Source of the DNA: Chitinophagaceae bacterium DXS
GTDB lineage: Bacteria; Bacteroidota; Bacteroidia; Chitinophagales; Chitinophagaceae
Reading direction: 5' to 3'
NCBI GenBank assembly: GCA_030345135.1
Contig: CP128386.1
Location: 3,187,677-3,251,676, forward strand
Length of the DNA stretch: 64,000 nt
In this document: one piece after another, positions 3,441 through 63,770 of the stretch
How positions within the stretch are numbered: the first letter of the stretch is position 1
Layout of the letters: every line of letters starts with the position of its first letter
Program-made: the position numbers and the translations under genes
The notes under the pieces: generated by a model
What the model was told of the DNA's origin: nothing
Databases searched by the model: none
What the model saw: only the letters and a program-made list of their open reading frames with translations

Positions 3441-3488
3441 CAGCTGAATTAATCTGAAGAAGCACATTAGCCAGATAGCTTTTGTTAA

Positions 3489-3569
3489 GCCCTGAAAGGG
3501 CGGCTGGCAATAGCACAGGGCAACGCCCTGTGAGATAGATCGATTAACATACTCAAGCCCTGAAAGGGC
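3489..3569. repeat. REP-like palindromes (GCCCTGAAAGGGC / ACAGGGCAACGCCCTGT)
   Basis: Two copies of the palindrome GCCCTGAAAGGGC (3489-3501 and 3557-3569) flank a second palindrome, ACAGGGCAACGCCCTGT (3515-3531). Palindromes of this style are common as dispersed intergenic elements in Bacteroidota (general knowledge). The window has no transposase for them. Confidence 0.65.
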
Positions 3570-57054: not shown

Positions 57055-57401
57055 CCGGCAGCAGGATCAGAATTTAAAAAATATTCTATTATAGCAAATA
57101 CCGACAGGGTAGCGTTTCGAAACTCTTTATTCGCGGATTACACTTGTAAATATTGTTATATAACTTTAAAAGAGTCTGCTCATTCTGTCAGTTCTTTTAA
57201 AGTTGACAAATGTAATTTTGTCACGGAATGCAAAAGTACTTTATTTGCAACTCGATTTGTTATGCCAAGTCTTCCATTTAGGTCTCTGTAACGATTCAAT
57301 AAAGTGAAATTTTGACCTTTCTGTGTGCAATGGCATAATAATCGTTAAGAAAAGTGTTCTGAATTTTCAATCATTAGTTAACTAAAAAAAACAATACAGC
57401 T
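57055..57401. other. Leader and promoter region of groES-groEL
   Basis: 347 bp without a gene. It holds the promoter candidate at 57218-57247 and a leader of about 150 nt. I do not see a CIRCE element. Confidence 0.65.
57218..57247 (+). promoter_or_regulatory. Putative promoter of groES-groEL
   Basis: TTG at 57218-57220, a 19-nt spacer, then TTTATTTG at 57240-57247 (one base off TAnnTTTG). Confidence 0.45.
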
Positions 57402-57683
57402 ATGGCAAAAAAACTCAATGTTACCCCTCTTCATGACAGGGTGATAGTAAAACCGGCTGCTGCGGAAGAGAAAACTGCAGGTGGAATTATTATCCCTGAC
57501 ACAGCCAAAGAAAAACCTCAACGCGGAACAATTGTGGCTGCAGGTCCTGGTAAAAAAGAAGAACCGGTTACAGTTAAAGTGGGTGATACAGTTTTATACG
57601 GAAAATACGCCGGAACAGAGATTCAGATTGACGGCGGTGACTACCTGATCATGAGAGAAAGCGATATTCTCGCAATAGTTTAA
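57402..57683 (+). CDS. groES: Co-chaperonin GroES
   Basis: 93 residues, the usual length. Family blocks: [20 protein letters not shown] (start and mobile loop), [24 protein letters not shown] and the ending [14 protein letters not shown]. Caps the GroEL ring encoded 95 bp downstream; the pair forms the classical operon. Confidence 0.98.
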
Positions 57684-57778: not shown

Positions 57779-59416
57779 ATGGCTAAGCAACTCTTCTTCG
57801 ATATTGAAGCAAGAAACAGAATGAAAAAAGGCGTTGATACACTGGCTAACGCTGTTAAAGTAACATTAGGTCCTAAAGGCCGTAACGTTGTTATCGAGAA
57901 AAAATTCGGTGCACCTGCAATCACAAAAGATGGTGTTACTGTTGCTAAAGAAATTGAACTGGAAGATTCTATCGAGAACATGGGTGCTCAGATGGTTAAA
58001 GAAGTAGCTTCTAAAACTGCAGACATTGCAGGTGACGGTACTACTACAGCAACTGTATTGGCTCAGGCTATCATAGCTGAAGGTTTGAAAATGGTTGCTG
58101 CCGGTGCAAATCCAATGGATTTGAAACGCGGTATCGACAAAGCGGTTGCGCTTGTAGTTGAGAACCTGAAAACACAAAGCCAGACTGTAGGCAGCGACGC
58201 TAAAAAAATTCAGCAGGTTGCTACTATCTCTGCTAACAACGACGAAACAGTTGGTAAACTGATCGCTGAAGCTTTCACTAAAGTTGGTAAAGAAGGCGTT
58301 ATCACTGTTGAAGAAGCTAAAGGAACTGAAACTTACAACGATGTAGTTGAAGGTATGCAGTTTGACCGTGGTTACATCTCTCCATATTTCGTTACAAACA
58401 GCGAAAAAATGGAAGCTGAATTACAGAATCCTTACATCCTGATCTATGATAAAAAGATCAGCAACATGAAGGATATCCTGCACATTCTTGAGAAAGTTGC
58501 TCAGAGTGGCCGTCCTCTGTTGATCATTTCAGAAGATCTGGAAGGTGAAGCACTGGCTACACTGGTAGTAAACAAATTACGTGGTACATTGAAAGTTGCA
58601 GCTGTTAAAGCTCCAGGTTTCGGTGACCGTCGTAAAGAAATGCTTACTGACATCGCTATCCTGACTGCAGGTACTGTTGTTAGCGAAGAACAAGGCTTTA
58701 AATTAGAGAATGCAGACCTTTCTTACTTAGGTCAGGCTGCCTCTGTATCTATTGATAAAGACAATACCGTTATCGTTGGTGGTAAAGGTAAAAAAGCAGA
58801 TATCACTGCTCGCGTTAGTCAGATCAAAGCTCAGATCGAGACTACAACTTCTGACTACGATAAAGAAAAATTACAGGAGCGCCTTGCTAAATTAGCTGGT
58901 GGTGTTGCTGTGCTTTACGTAGGTGCTACTACTGAAGTTGAAATGAAAGAGAAGAAAGACCGCGTAGACGATGCTTTACATGCAACACGCGCTGCGGTTG
59001 AAGAAGGTATCGTACCTGGTGGTGGTGTTGCTTACATCCGCGCTATTGAAAGCCTGGAAGCTAAAGTAAAAGGCCAGATCGCTGATGAGCAAACTGGTAT
59101 GGCAATCGTTCGCCGTGCTTTGGAAGAGCCTCTGCGCACTTTAACTGCTAACGCTGGTATCGACGGTTCTATCGTTGTTCAGAAAATCAAAGAAGGTAAA
59201 GGTGACTTTGGCTTCAATGCAAGAACTGAAGTTTACGAAAACCTGTTCAAAGCTGGTGTTATCGATCCTACTAAAGTAACTCGTATTGCTTTGGAAAATG
59301 CAGCTTCAATCGCTGGTATGTTATTAACTACTGAGTGTGTTGTTGCTGACAAACCAGAACCTAAAGCTGCTGCGGCTCCAATGCCTCACGGTGGTGGAAT
59401 GGGTATGGATTACTAA
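57779..59416 (+). CDS. groEL: Chaperonin GroEL
   Basis: 545 residues; folds proteins in the cytoplasm. The ATP-binding blocks [29 protein letters not shown] and [15 protein letters not shown] are present, and the C-terminus has the short Gly/Met tail GGGMGMDY. Codon use is strongly biased (many GCT, GTT and AAA), as expected for a highly expressed gene and unlike its neighbours. Confidence 0.99.
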
Positions 59417-59897: not shown

Positions 59898-60053
59898 TTA
59901 GTTCTTCTGTCCTTTGAAAAACTGCACTTCTTTTTCATGCTGCTTTGCAGCATCCAATGTATCGAAGGTTCCCAGGTTCCTGCGCTTATTTGTCCTGGGA
60001 TCTATTTTTCGGGAATAAAGTCTGTATTTCCCTGATTTTAATTTTCGTATCAT
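59898..60053 (-). CDS. Small basic conserved-looking protein (51 aa)
   Basis: The ATG at 60053 opens a 51-codon frame ending in TAA. The protein is basic and compact: MIRKLKSGKYRLYSRK, then DPRTNKRRNLGTFDTLDAA and KQHEKEVQFFKGQKN. The pattern (SGKYRLYSRK, a NLGTF turn, an AAKxHExxVQxF helix) resembles small uncharacterised proteins known from many bacteria, some annotated only as hypothetical. It could bind nucleic acid (Lys/Arg-rich strands followed by a helix), but that is inference. Confidence 0.75.
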   Translation of the reverse strand: MIRKLKSGKYRLYSRKIDPRTNKRRNLGTFDTLDAAKQHEKEVQFFKGQKN

Positions 60054-60301
60054 TTTAGAATAAAGATTTTAGTGCTAAACAGATATATTATACTCACTGT
60101 CCGAAAATATCACGCCAAAAACACCCTTATCATTTTACATTATAAAACCGATTTACTGAAGCGGCTTTCGAGCGCAGATTACGCATGGCATTGTAGAAAA
60201 AAATCCCTCTTATAATGGATAGCAGAACAATAAAATCCATTTAATACATAATAAGATGCGCAAGGGCTTAAAATGGCACGTTATTTAATGTAGTAATAAC
60301 G

Positions 60302-60391
60302 GATGTTTCCGGAAGGAGGTGGTTTGCACGGCAGATCTGAGATTAAACTCCCATTACTTGATCTGGACAATGCCAGCGTAAGGAAAATGGA
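60302..60391 (+). promoter_or_regulatory. TPP riboswitch (THI element), with no gene downstream
   Basis: The 3' conserved part CTTGATCTGGACAATGCCAG plus CGTAAGGAAA (60358-60387) matches the thi-box consensus with about three differences. The 5' part has GGAGGTG (60314-60320), a P3 stem GGTTTGC / GCAGATC (60320-60326 with 60330-60336; loop ACG) and the conserved TGAGA just after it. P2 can form between GGAG and CTCC (60347-60350), and P1 between TTTCC (60306-60310) and GGAAA. It binds thiamine pyrophosphate in the nascent RNA. A terminator follows within 10-40 nt. No plus-strand gene lies after it. Confidence 0.9.
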
Positions 60392-60400
60392 AATAACAGG

Positions 60401-60428
60401 GGCTCCGGTATCACCGGAGCCTTTTTTT
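60401..60428 (+). terminator. Terminator behind the TPP riboswitch (expression platform)
   Basis: Stem GGCTCCGGT / ACCGGAGCC (60401-60409 with 60413-60421), loop ATC, followed by seven T. It directs plus-strand termination. As the only plus-strand element upstream is the riboswitch, it is likely the ligand-controlled terminator of that switch. Confidence 0.92.
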
Positions 60429-60535
60429 GGTTTCTGTTGATGCTAAGCCACTTAAAATAATGCATCTGTAATGCATACTGCCAGGTTTAATTAATTACTG
60501 AATTTCATTTTTGCAACCTTTACAATTTTATCGCA

Positions 60536-62533
60536 TCAATGCACTGCCTGGCCTGATGCTTTTATTTGCATAACCGCGCCGCCGCTACCGGCAACATGTA
60601 TGTTGATAACATCTTTTGCTGTAACGCTTTCTATCCTTTTTTGAAGATGATTGGGTTCGGCATCACTATCTGCGGCATCTTCATAAACTGTCATTTCATA
60701 ATTTCCATTACCTAAAAATGACAACGGAATTGATACATCACGAGCCTTTGTATTGTTAAGTGTTCCTACATACCATTCGTTATTTTTCCTTCTTGCAATG
60801 GTAATATATTCACCAACTTCAGCGTGTAACGTTACTGTAGAATCCCAGGTTACAGGAACTTCCTGCAGGAACTCAAACCCCGGGGCATCCCTGTATGCTT
60901 CAGGTGCATCAGCAACCATTTGCAAAGCACTTTCCATCACTACATACATTGCCAGCATGTGGGCTCTCGTACCTGTTACATAGGGATTGGTAAAATGAAT
61001 GATGTGTTTACCCTGCGGCAAAGAGCGAAATCCCCCGAGATGATAGTCGGTTGCACCTGCAATTAATCGCGTGAATGCGACATCCAAATCGTGATTAGCA
61101 TTCATTACATCGCTGCTCCATTTATAGTTTTCATAATTGAGTGTTCCTTCCCGGGTAAATTCGTTGGGATAAGTACGTGATAAGCCAGTGGGCTTACATA
61201 CCCCGTGAAATTGGATAAAAAGATGATGTTTTGCAGCGGTCTTCAATATTTCTTCCTGCATTTGTATCATTTGCTGGTCATCCCTGTCAATAAAATCTAC
61301 CATCATACCTGAAACACCCCATTGTTCATACAGCGCAAAAATTGAATCAACAGGATGCTGCTTGTACAGCACTTTCCAATTCACCCAAAGATGGATACCC
61401 ACACCTTTGCTGTGAGCATAATCACAAATATGTTTCATATCCAGCGATGCAACAGGTTTGGTAGCATCAGCTTCACTGCCGGGTTGGCCAAAGTCGGAGC
61501 CGTCGTCAAAATACCAGGGTTGCTGGCCATATCCGTAAATGTCATGATATTGAATGTGATTAGCCGCGGCAAAATCAATATAATATTTATGTGTTTCGAA
61601 ATTGCTGCCGGGACAAAAGTTAGTATCCGGTACTATATTCCCATTCCACCATGGAAAAGTGGTTTTTCCCGGCCTGATCCAGGAGATATCTTTCAACACG
61701 CACGGTTCATTCAGATTTGTAATCATATTGGACGTAAATAAATCGCCCATACGGTCGCTAATTAAAAATACACGCCAGGGAGAATGATGTGGTAGTGTAG
61801 CCTCAACCTTTATATCGGGATCGTCAATATGTGGAGAGAGGGCTGTTCGTAAAATGCCTTTTTCTTTTATCAGATACATGCCTGCATAATTGCGCAGTGC
61901 AGCTTCCGTAATTGCCATATGCACCCCATTATCAAACTGGAATAATGCAGGCACGTCCATCAGTGTGTCGTTTTTTATATCAGCATAACGCAAGTGCGTG
62001 TATAATGGCTCATGCGAAGTTTGAAAGTTCTCCAAAAGTCCGGTAATCACTTTGGGATTTCCTGCAATATTCATTTCCGTATGTTCATCAGTAAGCTTAA
62101 GGGTTTTCCAATTTGTTTGCGTTGGGAACTCATATCTGAACGCAATTCCCTCATCATAAGCACGGACGATAAAATTTATACTGTGAAAAGGGGCTTGTGT
62201 TTGAGATAACCCAATTACCATCTGCCGGCAATGGTCATGAGCGATCTTCGATTTTCCGACTACAAGTGTATAGGAGGTATCAATAACAGAAAATACAGGT
62301 TTGTTCATTTTCAGATGCGATGCAAATGCATCATCCGGAAATATTAATCTTATCGCAGAATTGTCTACTATTTTATTCTTTCTGTAAGTAACCGTATAAG
62401 TTATTTGTTCTGATGTGCACTGCAATGAAAAATGCAGATTACCATCAGGAGATGTAACGCTGTATGTTTTATCCCCGGCATACAACGATAAGGTTACTAA
62501 CAGGGTGATGATAAAAAGAACAGGCTTCTGCAT
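60536..62533 (-). CDS. Secreted glycoside hydrolase family 97 (alpha-glucosidase/galactosidase type)
   Basis: 665 residues, a signal peptide (about 1-19, ending SLYAG), an N-terminal beta-sandwich (YSVTSPDGNLHFSL), then the GH97 barrel: HDIYGYGQQPWYFDDGS, GVGIHLWVNWK and GVSGMMVDFIDRDDQ. D413 in VDFIDRD sits where retaining members have their Asp nucleophile, so an alpha-galactosidase-type retaining mechanism is more likely than the inverting SusB type (inference). E462 in FTREG is a candidate acid/base. A C-terminal beta domain follows. It has no partner gene nearby; its 3' end faces the orphan riboswitch. Confidence 0.9.
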   Translation of the reverse strand: MQKPVLFIITLLVTLSLYAGDKTYSVTSPDGNLHFSLQCTSEQITYTVTYRKNKIVDNSAIRLIFPDDAFASHLKMNKPVFSVIDTSYTLVVGKSKIAHDHCRQMVIGLSQTQAPFHSINFIVRAYDEGIAFRYEFPTQTNWKTLKLTDEHTEMNIAGNPKVITGLLENFQTSHEPLYTHLRYADIKNDTLMDVPALFQFDNGVHMAITEAALRNYAGMYLIKEKGILRTALSPHIDDPDIKVEATLPHHSPWRVFLISDRMGDLFTSNMITNLNEPCVLKDISWIRPGKTTFPWWNGNIVPDTNFCPGSNFETHKYYIDFAAANHIQYHDIYGYGQQPWYFDDGSDFGQPGSEADATKPVASLDMKHICDYAHSKGVGIHLWVNWKVLYKQHPVDSIFALYEQWGVSGMMVDFIDRDDQQMIQMQEEILKTAAKHHLFIQFHGVCKPTGLSRTYPNEFTREGTLNYENYKWSSDVMNANHDLDVAFTRLIAGATDYHLGGFRSLPQGKHIIHFTNPYVTGTRAHMLAMYVVMESALQMVADAPEAYRDAPGFEFLQEVPVTWDSTVTLHAEVGEYITIARRKNNEWYVGTLNNTKARDVSIPLSFLGNGNYEMTVYEDAADSDAEPNHLQKRIESVTAKDVINIHVAGSGGAVMQIKASGQAVH

Positions 62534-62852: not shown

Positions 62853-63770
62853 TTACTGAAACCTTCTCATATAAACGGTTCTTCCGAAATATTTTGTAAG
62901 CGAATCAATGGCACGCAGGGTATCCGCCTGTAATACTGTAGCATCAATGTACAATCTGTATCGCATTGCTGTATCAGTTTTAAGACTGTCAAAGCCGGCG
63001 TGATCGCCATATTCACGCAATTTAGCAGTCCGGGCAACTGCACGGTCACGGCTGCCTGTTACTTCAAAAATAAATTTAAACCTTGCGCTGTCAGTTGCAG
63101 GCGGTGCAATTGTGGTAACTGTGGCGGTAGTGTCAACAGTCGCTGGTTTTCTTACAATTGCAGTATCTACCGGAGTAGCTGGCTTTTCTGCGCCTTCTGT
63201 TGCATTGTTGCCTGAAGACATTTCTGTCGATTTGCTTGCTTCATGTGAATTTATGTAATTATAGATGCCATAACCGATGCCAGCGACTATTAAAAGCACA
63301 ATTATGATGGCAAGGGCAAATACTCCTGTTCTTCTTGACTGCCTGTTTTCTATGGTGCCGGCTTCGGCTGCATAACCTCTTTTTCTTTTGAACTCTTCTT
63401 CCCTCGCGGACAGGTGGGCCATCTGCCTGAATTGCAGGTTAGCCGAATTATCCATGATTATTTCGCCTATACCTTCAAAAGAATAAGATTTTCCTATATT
63501 GATCCATTGCTTGGCTTCAATAAGGTAAGATTCAACGCCACTGCCCGCAATGCTTCTGTTTTTACCAAGTTTGGTTGCTATATATTCAATTAGTTCCGGA
63601 GAGGTTTCTGCATACTTGTTAAAGGTGAACTCTATCTTAGGCTGACTGGTGGTGGTACCGCTTTCTGTAACAAAAGGTTCGCCGGTGATAACAAATTCGC
63701 CTAATTTTTCTAAGGACACATGTTTGTTTTCCAATAAAAACTCATGTATAAGTGCATCATATTTAGTCAC
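62853..63770 (-). CDS. HU-CCDC81 and SPOR domain inner-membrane protein
   Basis: The N-terminal HU-CCDC81-like part (about 1-115: HEFLLENKHVSLEKLGEF, FNKYAETSPELIEYIATKLG, SYLIEAKQWINIGKSYSFEG) is followed by a basic linker, one membrane helix (ALAIIIVLLIVAGIGYGIYN) and a Thr/Pro-rich linker. The C-terminal SPOR domain (FIFEVTGSRDRAVARTAKL, RYRLYIDATV) binds denuded peptidoglycan, so the protein probably works at the division site. The HU-like fold is built like DNA-binding HU but its role here is unknown. 305 residues. Confidence 0.92.
   Translation of the reverse strand: MTKYDALIHEFLLENKHVSLEKLGEFVITGEPFVTESGTTTSQPKIEFTFNKYAETSPELIEYIATKLGKNRSIAGSGVESYLIEAKQWINIGKSYSFEGIGEIIMDNSANLQFRQMAHLSAREEEFKRKRGYAAEAGTIENRQSRRTGVFALAIIIVLLIVAGIGYGIYNYINSHEASKSTEMSSGNNATEGAEKPATPVDTAIVRKPATVDTTATVTTIAPPATDSARFKFIFEVTGSRDRAVARTAKLREYGDHAGFDSLKTDTAMRYRLYIDATVLQADTLRAIDSLTKYFGRTVYMRRFQ

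Follow-up and report, generated by a model that had tools for sequence, protein, structure and literature searches.

A conserved family of self-terminated TPP aptamer RNAs with a sigma54-type promoter motif in Bacteroidota

Introduction

Bacterial riboswitch aptamers are nearly always gene leaders. The locus described here raises the question of which role a TPP aptamer can have that is closed by its own terminator and followed by no thiamine (thi) gene. It is located on the plus strand of a 64,000-nucleotide stretch of the genome of Chitinophagaceae bacterium DXS (the window), whose numbering is used throughout. A first-pass annotation had offered three explanations: loss of a thi gene, a ligand-dependent short RNA, or a read-through RNA antisense to a neighbouring GH97 gene. 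These explanations are examined below by comparison of the element with its relatives.

Aptamer, terminator and surroundings

The Rfam TPP model RF00059, which had been proposed as a check of the locus, matches the plus strand at 60305-60401 from end to end (model positions 1-105) with 48.8 bits, which corresponds to an E-value of 7.8e-9 in a search of 301 bases and of 4.5e-8 in a search of the whole genome. This check had a divided outcome: the match is of full length and its core is unbroken, the broken pairs being found mainly in P1, but the score lies below the gathering cut-off of 54.3 bits. A default Rfam scan therefore reports nothing at this position. The arms of P1 were read off the sequence; the 5' arm (TGTTTCC, 60304-60310) pairs with the 3' arm (GGAAATA, 60389-60395), and the helix is retained in relatives. 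An intrinsic terminator (60399-60428) begins 3-5 nt past P1. It consists of a stem of 9-11 bp (about 60399-60423) with the loop ATC and of seven T (60422-60428), and is supported by the sequence, the fold and the covariation of its pairs. The annotation as a TPP riboswitch with its own terminator is thus confirmed. All further Rfam matches on the 301-base stretch had E-values of 0.11 or worse and were rejected. Likewise rejected was a 17-codon ORF; its ATG (60387-60389) extends into the beginning of the P1 3' arm and is missing from most relatives.

Upstream of the element, and not part of the RNA gene, a groEL ORF (57779-59416, plus strand; name recognised from its sequence) ends about 890 bases before the RNA. 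Downstream, the convergent GH97 glycoside hydrolase gene (60536-62533, minus strand), likewise a separate gene, ends 108 bases beyond the terminator; its earlier assignment was corroborated by the Pfam families PF10566, PF14508 and PF14509. The gap of 1.1 kb between groEL and GH97 contains the RNA and one minus-strand ORF of 51 aa (59898-60053, MIRKLKSGKYRLYSRKIDPRTNKRRNLG...), which has no Pfam match. The plus strand had been described as free of genes for 2.1 kb. In the ORF list, no convincing plus-strand gene follows 60428 before 63845 (about 3.4 kb). The seven plus-strand ORFs in between (59-128 aa) all overlap minus-strand genes, five of them GH97 and two the gene at 62853-63770, and none is therefore gene-like. 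A thi gene was not seen after 60428, so that the RNA does not qualify as a thiamine-gene leader. A thi gene hidden by an assembly error just past 60428 had been named as a refuting condition; the genome is a single contig of 7.29 Mb. Three ordinary TPP riboswitches with 70-77 bits are encoded elsewhere in it. Among plasmid records, none covers 80% of the element. As a separate observation, an Acido-Lenti-1 RNA was matched at 3488-3532 of the minus strand (38.5 bits, cut-off 37), in an apparent Bacteroidota genome.

Relatives of the RNA

A blastn search with 60100-60536 against 59 genomes, including that of the host, detected a second, decayed copy in the host genome (L007, 79% identity over 62 bases). 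In one relative, 24 bases agree with the terminator stem (L006), which was read as chance. For a second search against 394 genomes of the host's family, the query was reduced to the aptamer alone (60300-60402), excluding box and terminator. Matches were obtained in 31 of the 394 genomes, 23 places having E-values up to 7.5e-4. On reading, 18 of these 23 places (the window included; 17 of the 22 others) displayed the full anatomy: TPP core, P1, a terminator and, some 26-39 nt upstream of P1, a GGCA box. The other five are two ordinary riboswitches (L052, L055), two decayed copies (L007, L057) and one copy without its 5' part (L045). Of 13 weaker places nine were read, and comprised five unrelated sequences and four ordinary TPP riboswitches.

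From 16 members found by blastn, a model of aptamer plus terminator (R1) was built and run on the same 394 genomes. After curation by eye, for which only some matches below 70 bits were examined, 61 RNAs that share TPP core, P1 and terminator were assigned to the class; they come from 27 genera and 56 genomes. All 60 matches of at least 70 bits were read and 58 retained; the ordinary L128 and G082:C17 (L011) were removed. Between 67.7 and 69.9 bits eight matches were examined, of which L072, L134 and L139 were retained and L135, L137, L138, L140 and L141 removed by eye; L135 has a terminator-like hairpin and lacks the box. The window copy is the fifth-ranked match of R1, and the RF00059 cut-off is passed by nine of the 20 best members, among which the window copy is counted. 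When 345 genomes of the class were searched, an E-value of 1e-11 was reached at 25 places. Twelve of these were read; L142, L143 and L144, from three other families of the class, scored 78-91 bits and possess both box and terminator, and L146 has a terminator without a clear box.

Several copies deviate from the common form. The decayed copy in the host genome (L007:1469-1589; C1 about 5,396,300, minus strand) scores 50.8 bits with R1 and 17.1 bits with RF00059. Its terminator is absent, its box is broken (TAGCATAG), and it overlaps the start of a Methyltransf_28 gene. The G235 genome contains two full copies 5 kb apart (L067/L078 and L108, at C1:3994964 and 3989809) and a third, decayed copy (L057; R1 58.9 bits), whose box is intact and whose terminator is absent. 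L007 and L057 indicate that copies of the RNA can be lost. In genus g93 (L098-L100, L102, L105, L106, L109-L111) an insert in the P3 stem extends the matched RNA to 154-166 nt; P3 inserts also occur in L122, L123, L129 and L133, which belong to other genera. Three RNAs of genus g7 (L103, L130, L131) lack the box and are located 4-23 bases downstream of a same-strand ORF, which is a DUF4142 gene in L103 and a blastp relative of it in the other two. These RNAs may originate from the 3' end of the mRNA of the preceding ORF.

The promoter motif

A sigma54-type box is found at 60273-60289 of the plus strand (TGGCAC; GG at 60275-60276, TT of the -12 element at 60285-60286). The first-pass annotation does not mention it. 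Among all positions of the window, both strands included, the site (60274-60286) gives the best match to the motif deduced from 57 members, with a score of 16.1 compared to 13.8 for the next; the site itself is one of the 57 sources of the motif. The predicted transcription start is 60301. This base is a purine, preceded by a pyrimidine, and lies at +26 relative to the first G of the box. A loose box, GG(C/T)A 21-39 nt upstream of the start of the model match, is present in 57 of the 61 members and missing from four. This count is partly circular, because absence of the box was weighed in the choice of members; the 17 of 22 places from the aptamer-only blastn search are free of this circularity. 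The aligned motif reads TGGCA(C/T)(G/A), followed by T at +10 (54/57) and +11 (50/57), A at +14 (36/57), a pyrimidine at +25 (47/57) and a purine at +26 (53/57). The TGGCAC-type -24 element is thus placed at a fixed distance from the TT of the -12 element and from the start. The usual GC of the -12 element is weak in the family (G 12/57, C 20/57) and missing from the window copy. Compared to the sigma54 consensus TGGCAC-N5-7-TTGCT given in PMC12316311, the family box, as judged from its sequence, has sigma54 spacing apart from the weak GC in the -12 half.

A strict version of the box precedes 44 of the 61 members; in 200 shuffles the count averaged 0.19 and never exceeded three. It was found for one of 31 ordinary TPP riboswitches, and a bare GGCA within -45 to +8 for five of the 31; this reference set, which is not random, consists of the three from the host genome and the best-scoring matches. 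Outside the RNAs, the motif in its proper orientation is found upstream of ORFs 2.74 times per 10 kb (9 sites, 33 kb), compared to 0.6 times in the remaining intergenic DNA (5 sites, 84 kb) and 0.23 times within ORFs (8 sites, 341 kb), which makes it twelve times denser before ORFs than inside them. The rpoN gene is present in the host genome (E 2.2e-53) and in 239 of 244 genomes of its family; being near universal, its presence does not separate genomes that carry the RNA from others. The genes grpE and groES are reported to be sigma54-dependent in Bacteroidota, groES in Bacteroides thetaiotaomicron (PMC12316311). A weak copy of the motif (TGGCATAATAATCG, score 10.1) occurs at 57332 of the plus strand, 70 bases upstream of a groES-like ORF at 57402.

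Neighbouring genes

The next ORF of at least 100 aa lies on the same strand for 35 of the 61 members and on the opposite strand for 25; for one, none was found. When the majority within each genus is counted, the same strand prevails in 14 genera and the opposite strand in 13. For comparison, the next gene of the 31 ordinary TPP riboswitches is on the same strand in 30 cases, and none was found in one. This comparison shows that the strand of the RNA is independent of that of the next gene. About 120 neighbouring proteins were available, and in the 40 scanned with Pfam there was neither a thi gene nor a second GH97. Fourteen of the 40 were assigned to stress-type functions in a classification of our own: two Usp, two PEP-synthase/PPDK, erythromycin esterase, two short-chain dehydrogenases, KGG, DUF892, DUF4142, Ku, endonuclease V, DUF763 and MscS. 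This is a raw count, in which some of the neighbours share a genus (both Usp are from g7, both dehydrogenases from g5). Five of the 40 have no Pfam match, and one is a transketolase, a TPP enzyme. In four other genera the full RNA adjoins a Methyltransf_28 gene, in varying orientation; such a gene also adjoins L007, whose site may thus be the old home of the RNA.

Conserved helices and the search for a switch

An aptamer followed by a terminator is the classic layout of an attenuator. The RNA could accordingly be a cis-acting element in which TPP-dependent read-through controls the gene beyond, either as its leader or as antisense RNA, and the same-strand next gene of 35 members, located within 300 bases in 25 of them, agrees with this. 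The balance of orientations between genera and the absence of a convincing plus-strand gene before 63845 in the window argue against it, as do the helices that evolution has kept. To assess the latter, the best helix between two stretches of one RNA was compared to that obtained when the stretches were swapped between genera. This test covered 54 of the 61 members; L079, L081 (the window copy), L083, L093, L104 and L124 could not be parsed and L072 is incomplete. For the two arms of P1, the score was 18.1 for true and 12.1 for swapped pairs, and the arms covary in 22 of 22 genera. For an antiterminator, formed by the aptamer and the 5' arm of the terminator, the corresponding values were 12.6 and 13.2; true pairs were better in only six of 22 genera, and in four of 17 when the analysis was confined to members with a same-strand next gene. 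The antiterminator score of true pairs is thus even slightly lower than that of swapped ones (p 0.03), in a test that lacked a usable positive control.

Two scans for such controls, made with exact patterns on viral contigs, found no TPP element. A record of Acetoanaerobium noterae (Firmicutes) contains a single one, which is too few for a comparison between genera. Its candidate antiterminator, identified by reading, is not stronger than the background helix scores observed here. The raw helix score can therefore not discriminate, and the lack of an antiterminator is deduced from the comparison between genera. Shuffling of the P1 arms within one sequence had little power owing to their composition, and the swap between genera was used instead. 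The arms of the terminator gave 26.5 compared to 11.9 and covaried in 22 of 22 genera; this is true by construction, since the best hairpin was chosen for each RNA, and the evidence for terminator covariation is consequently taken from two alignments. In the first, which comprises 60 of the 61 members and L142-L144 and is biased towards the model to which it was fitted, 96.2% of the pair cells are standard, double changes occur in 342 cells compared to 96 in shuffles, and all ten modelled stem pairs of the terminator show double changes. The second, a free alignment of 16 sequences, gave the same picture, terminator pairs included. Taken together, P1 and the terminator have been kept by evolution, and there is no sign that an antiterminator has been kept. 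We therefore consider an attenuator function of the window copy unlikely, although some members with a same-strand next gene could be attenuators.

The first-pass annotation had taken sequence conservation as a hint that the element is still under selection, and the family of 61 members, its covariation and its conserved core bear this out. All 26 columns that are conserved to at least 95% in the 63-sequence alignment are located inside the aptamer (60318-60384), which indicates that sequence selection acts on the TPP core. The window copy, which is one of the 63 sequences, matches 26 of 26; together with the full-length match and the covariation of the helices in relatives, this identifies it as a carrier of the TPP core nucleotides and of helices P2-P5. 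These columns, which by eye read like the Rfam consensus, and the passing of the TPP cut-off by almost half of the 20 best members speak against a co-option of the fold for a different ligand, or for a role that is purely structural or consists in protein binding. The missing thi neighbours and the variable P3, with its long inserts in some genera, would be in line with such a co-option, which we nevertheless regard as distinctly improbable.

The element is no relic. A decaying leader of a lost thi gene would explain the score below the Rfam cut-off, and the clearly decayed L007 illustrates what such decay looks like; however, the window copy retains its box, P1, terminator and complete core, ranks among the best R1 matches, and belongs to a family whose covariation is a mark of selection, which makes this explanation very improbable. 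Moreover, neighbours differ between genera and include no thi gene among those scanned. The proposed comparison of the groEL-GH97 interval with related genomes was followed up in 11 relatives (48-53% identity) found by a GH97 search of named genomes: within the stretch examined, neither groEL nor the RNA is present near GH97 in any of them, the best RNA match having 15.2 bits (E 0.18). In 10 of these 11 genomes, R1 detected four places in three genomes; on reading, the promoter box is absent from all four, one of which (L173) has a terminator-like hairpin. An antisense control of GH97 by read-through RNA, which the convergent arrangement and the short distance from the terminator to the end of GH97 would permit, is hardly credible: the terminator is strong and its T run intact, the next gene is not opposed in about half of the genera, so that this cannot be a general function, no further GH97 was found among the scanned neighbours, and the 11 GH97 relatives are devoid of the RNA within the stretch examined.

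Proposed function

Among the three explanations offered initially, a short RNA accounts best for these findings. The helix comparison across genera speaks, within the limits of its controls, against the ligand dependence of its termination, which was part of that explanation. On balance, we favour the reading that 60301-60428 encodes a TPP-binding small RNA of some 128 nt that is transcribed with sigma54 and always terminated, would act in trans and is no gene's leader at this locus; by our comparison of related sequences this is the probable solution. Anatomy, promoter motif and covariation are established by that comparison; from these we infer the use of RpoN, the binding of TPP, constitutive termination and action in trans.

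According to this proposal, synthesis of the RNA would be driven by RpoN and an activator, and the neighbours in relatives suggest that it may be tied to stress or starvation. The transcript would comprise the TPP aptamer closed by P1 and end at the terminator (60428). Binding of TPP would lock P1 and the core, and thereby alter the lifetime of the RNA or its pairing or binding partners, through which it would act in trans and not as a leader. Since the bases of the TPP core are the only strongly conserved ones, TPP binding is probably the property under selection. A pairing small RNA is expected to show a conserved unpaired seed. Across genera, no conserved unpaired stretch that might serve as a seed was seen outside the core; lineage-specific pairing targets are possible. 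A decoy that lowers free TPP would fit the conservation best, but may fail on molecule numbers. As a tentative generalisation, to which we give somewhat less than even credence, these RNAs might form a widespread class of non-switch aptamers: sigma54-driven, self-terminated TPP-binding RNAs of a Bacteroidota stress programme, whose action in trans would be that of ligand-gated small RNAs or else of decoys that lower free TPP and thereby release ordinary TPP riboswitches.

If this is true, a conserved family that extends from promoter to terminator, with no fixed gene and no evident switching platform, would amount to a small RNA dedicated to the binding of a metabolite. In Bacteroidota, vitamin B1 status would then be coupled to a sigma54 programme, and a TPP aptamer that lacks a thi gene could be a gene in itself. 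The family would furthermore offer a clear and rapidly testable case for deciding if an aptamer RNA on its own is able to act in trans.

Comparison with known systems

The RNA resembles the TPP riboswitches of RF00059 in its core sequence and in P1-P5, and for nine of the 20 best members also in score. It differs from them in that no adjoining thi gene was found, in having its own sigma54-type motif shortly before P1, and in a terminator that directly follows P1 with no conserved alternative helix found. In the open-licence literature, as judged by titles and the beginnings of abstracts, no report of free-standing TPP RNA genes was found. The authors of PMC2258182 mention "a handful" of orphan high-scoring aptamers and suggest that these are trans-acting RNAs or recent orphans; unlike the present case, the section devoted to them gives no family, promoter or covariation. 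In Agrobacterium, a TPP riboswitch transcript of about 110 nt from thiC accumulates in stationary phase (PMC3738593). It is likewise a short terminated TPP aptamer RNA; in contrast to the RNA described here, it leads the thiCOGG operon and shuts it off with thiamine.

According to PMC8079631, the Listeria SAM riboswitch SreA has an additional trans effect on prfA; like the RNA described here, it is a terminated aptamer, and it functions as a small RNA. However, SreA still leads an operon and has a terminator/antiterminator pair, whereas the RNA at 60301-60428 leads no gene. AspocR and Rli55 are non-coding RNAs of Listeria under the control of B12 riboswitches (PMC8079631), in which an aptamer likewise governs an RNA and not a protein gene. 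Their ligand chooses between a short RNA and a long one whose extra part is functional, whereas only the short form is evident here. As far as these systems are described in PMC8079631, SreA, AspocR and Rli55 are the nearest precedents found for the RNA family.
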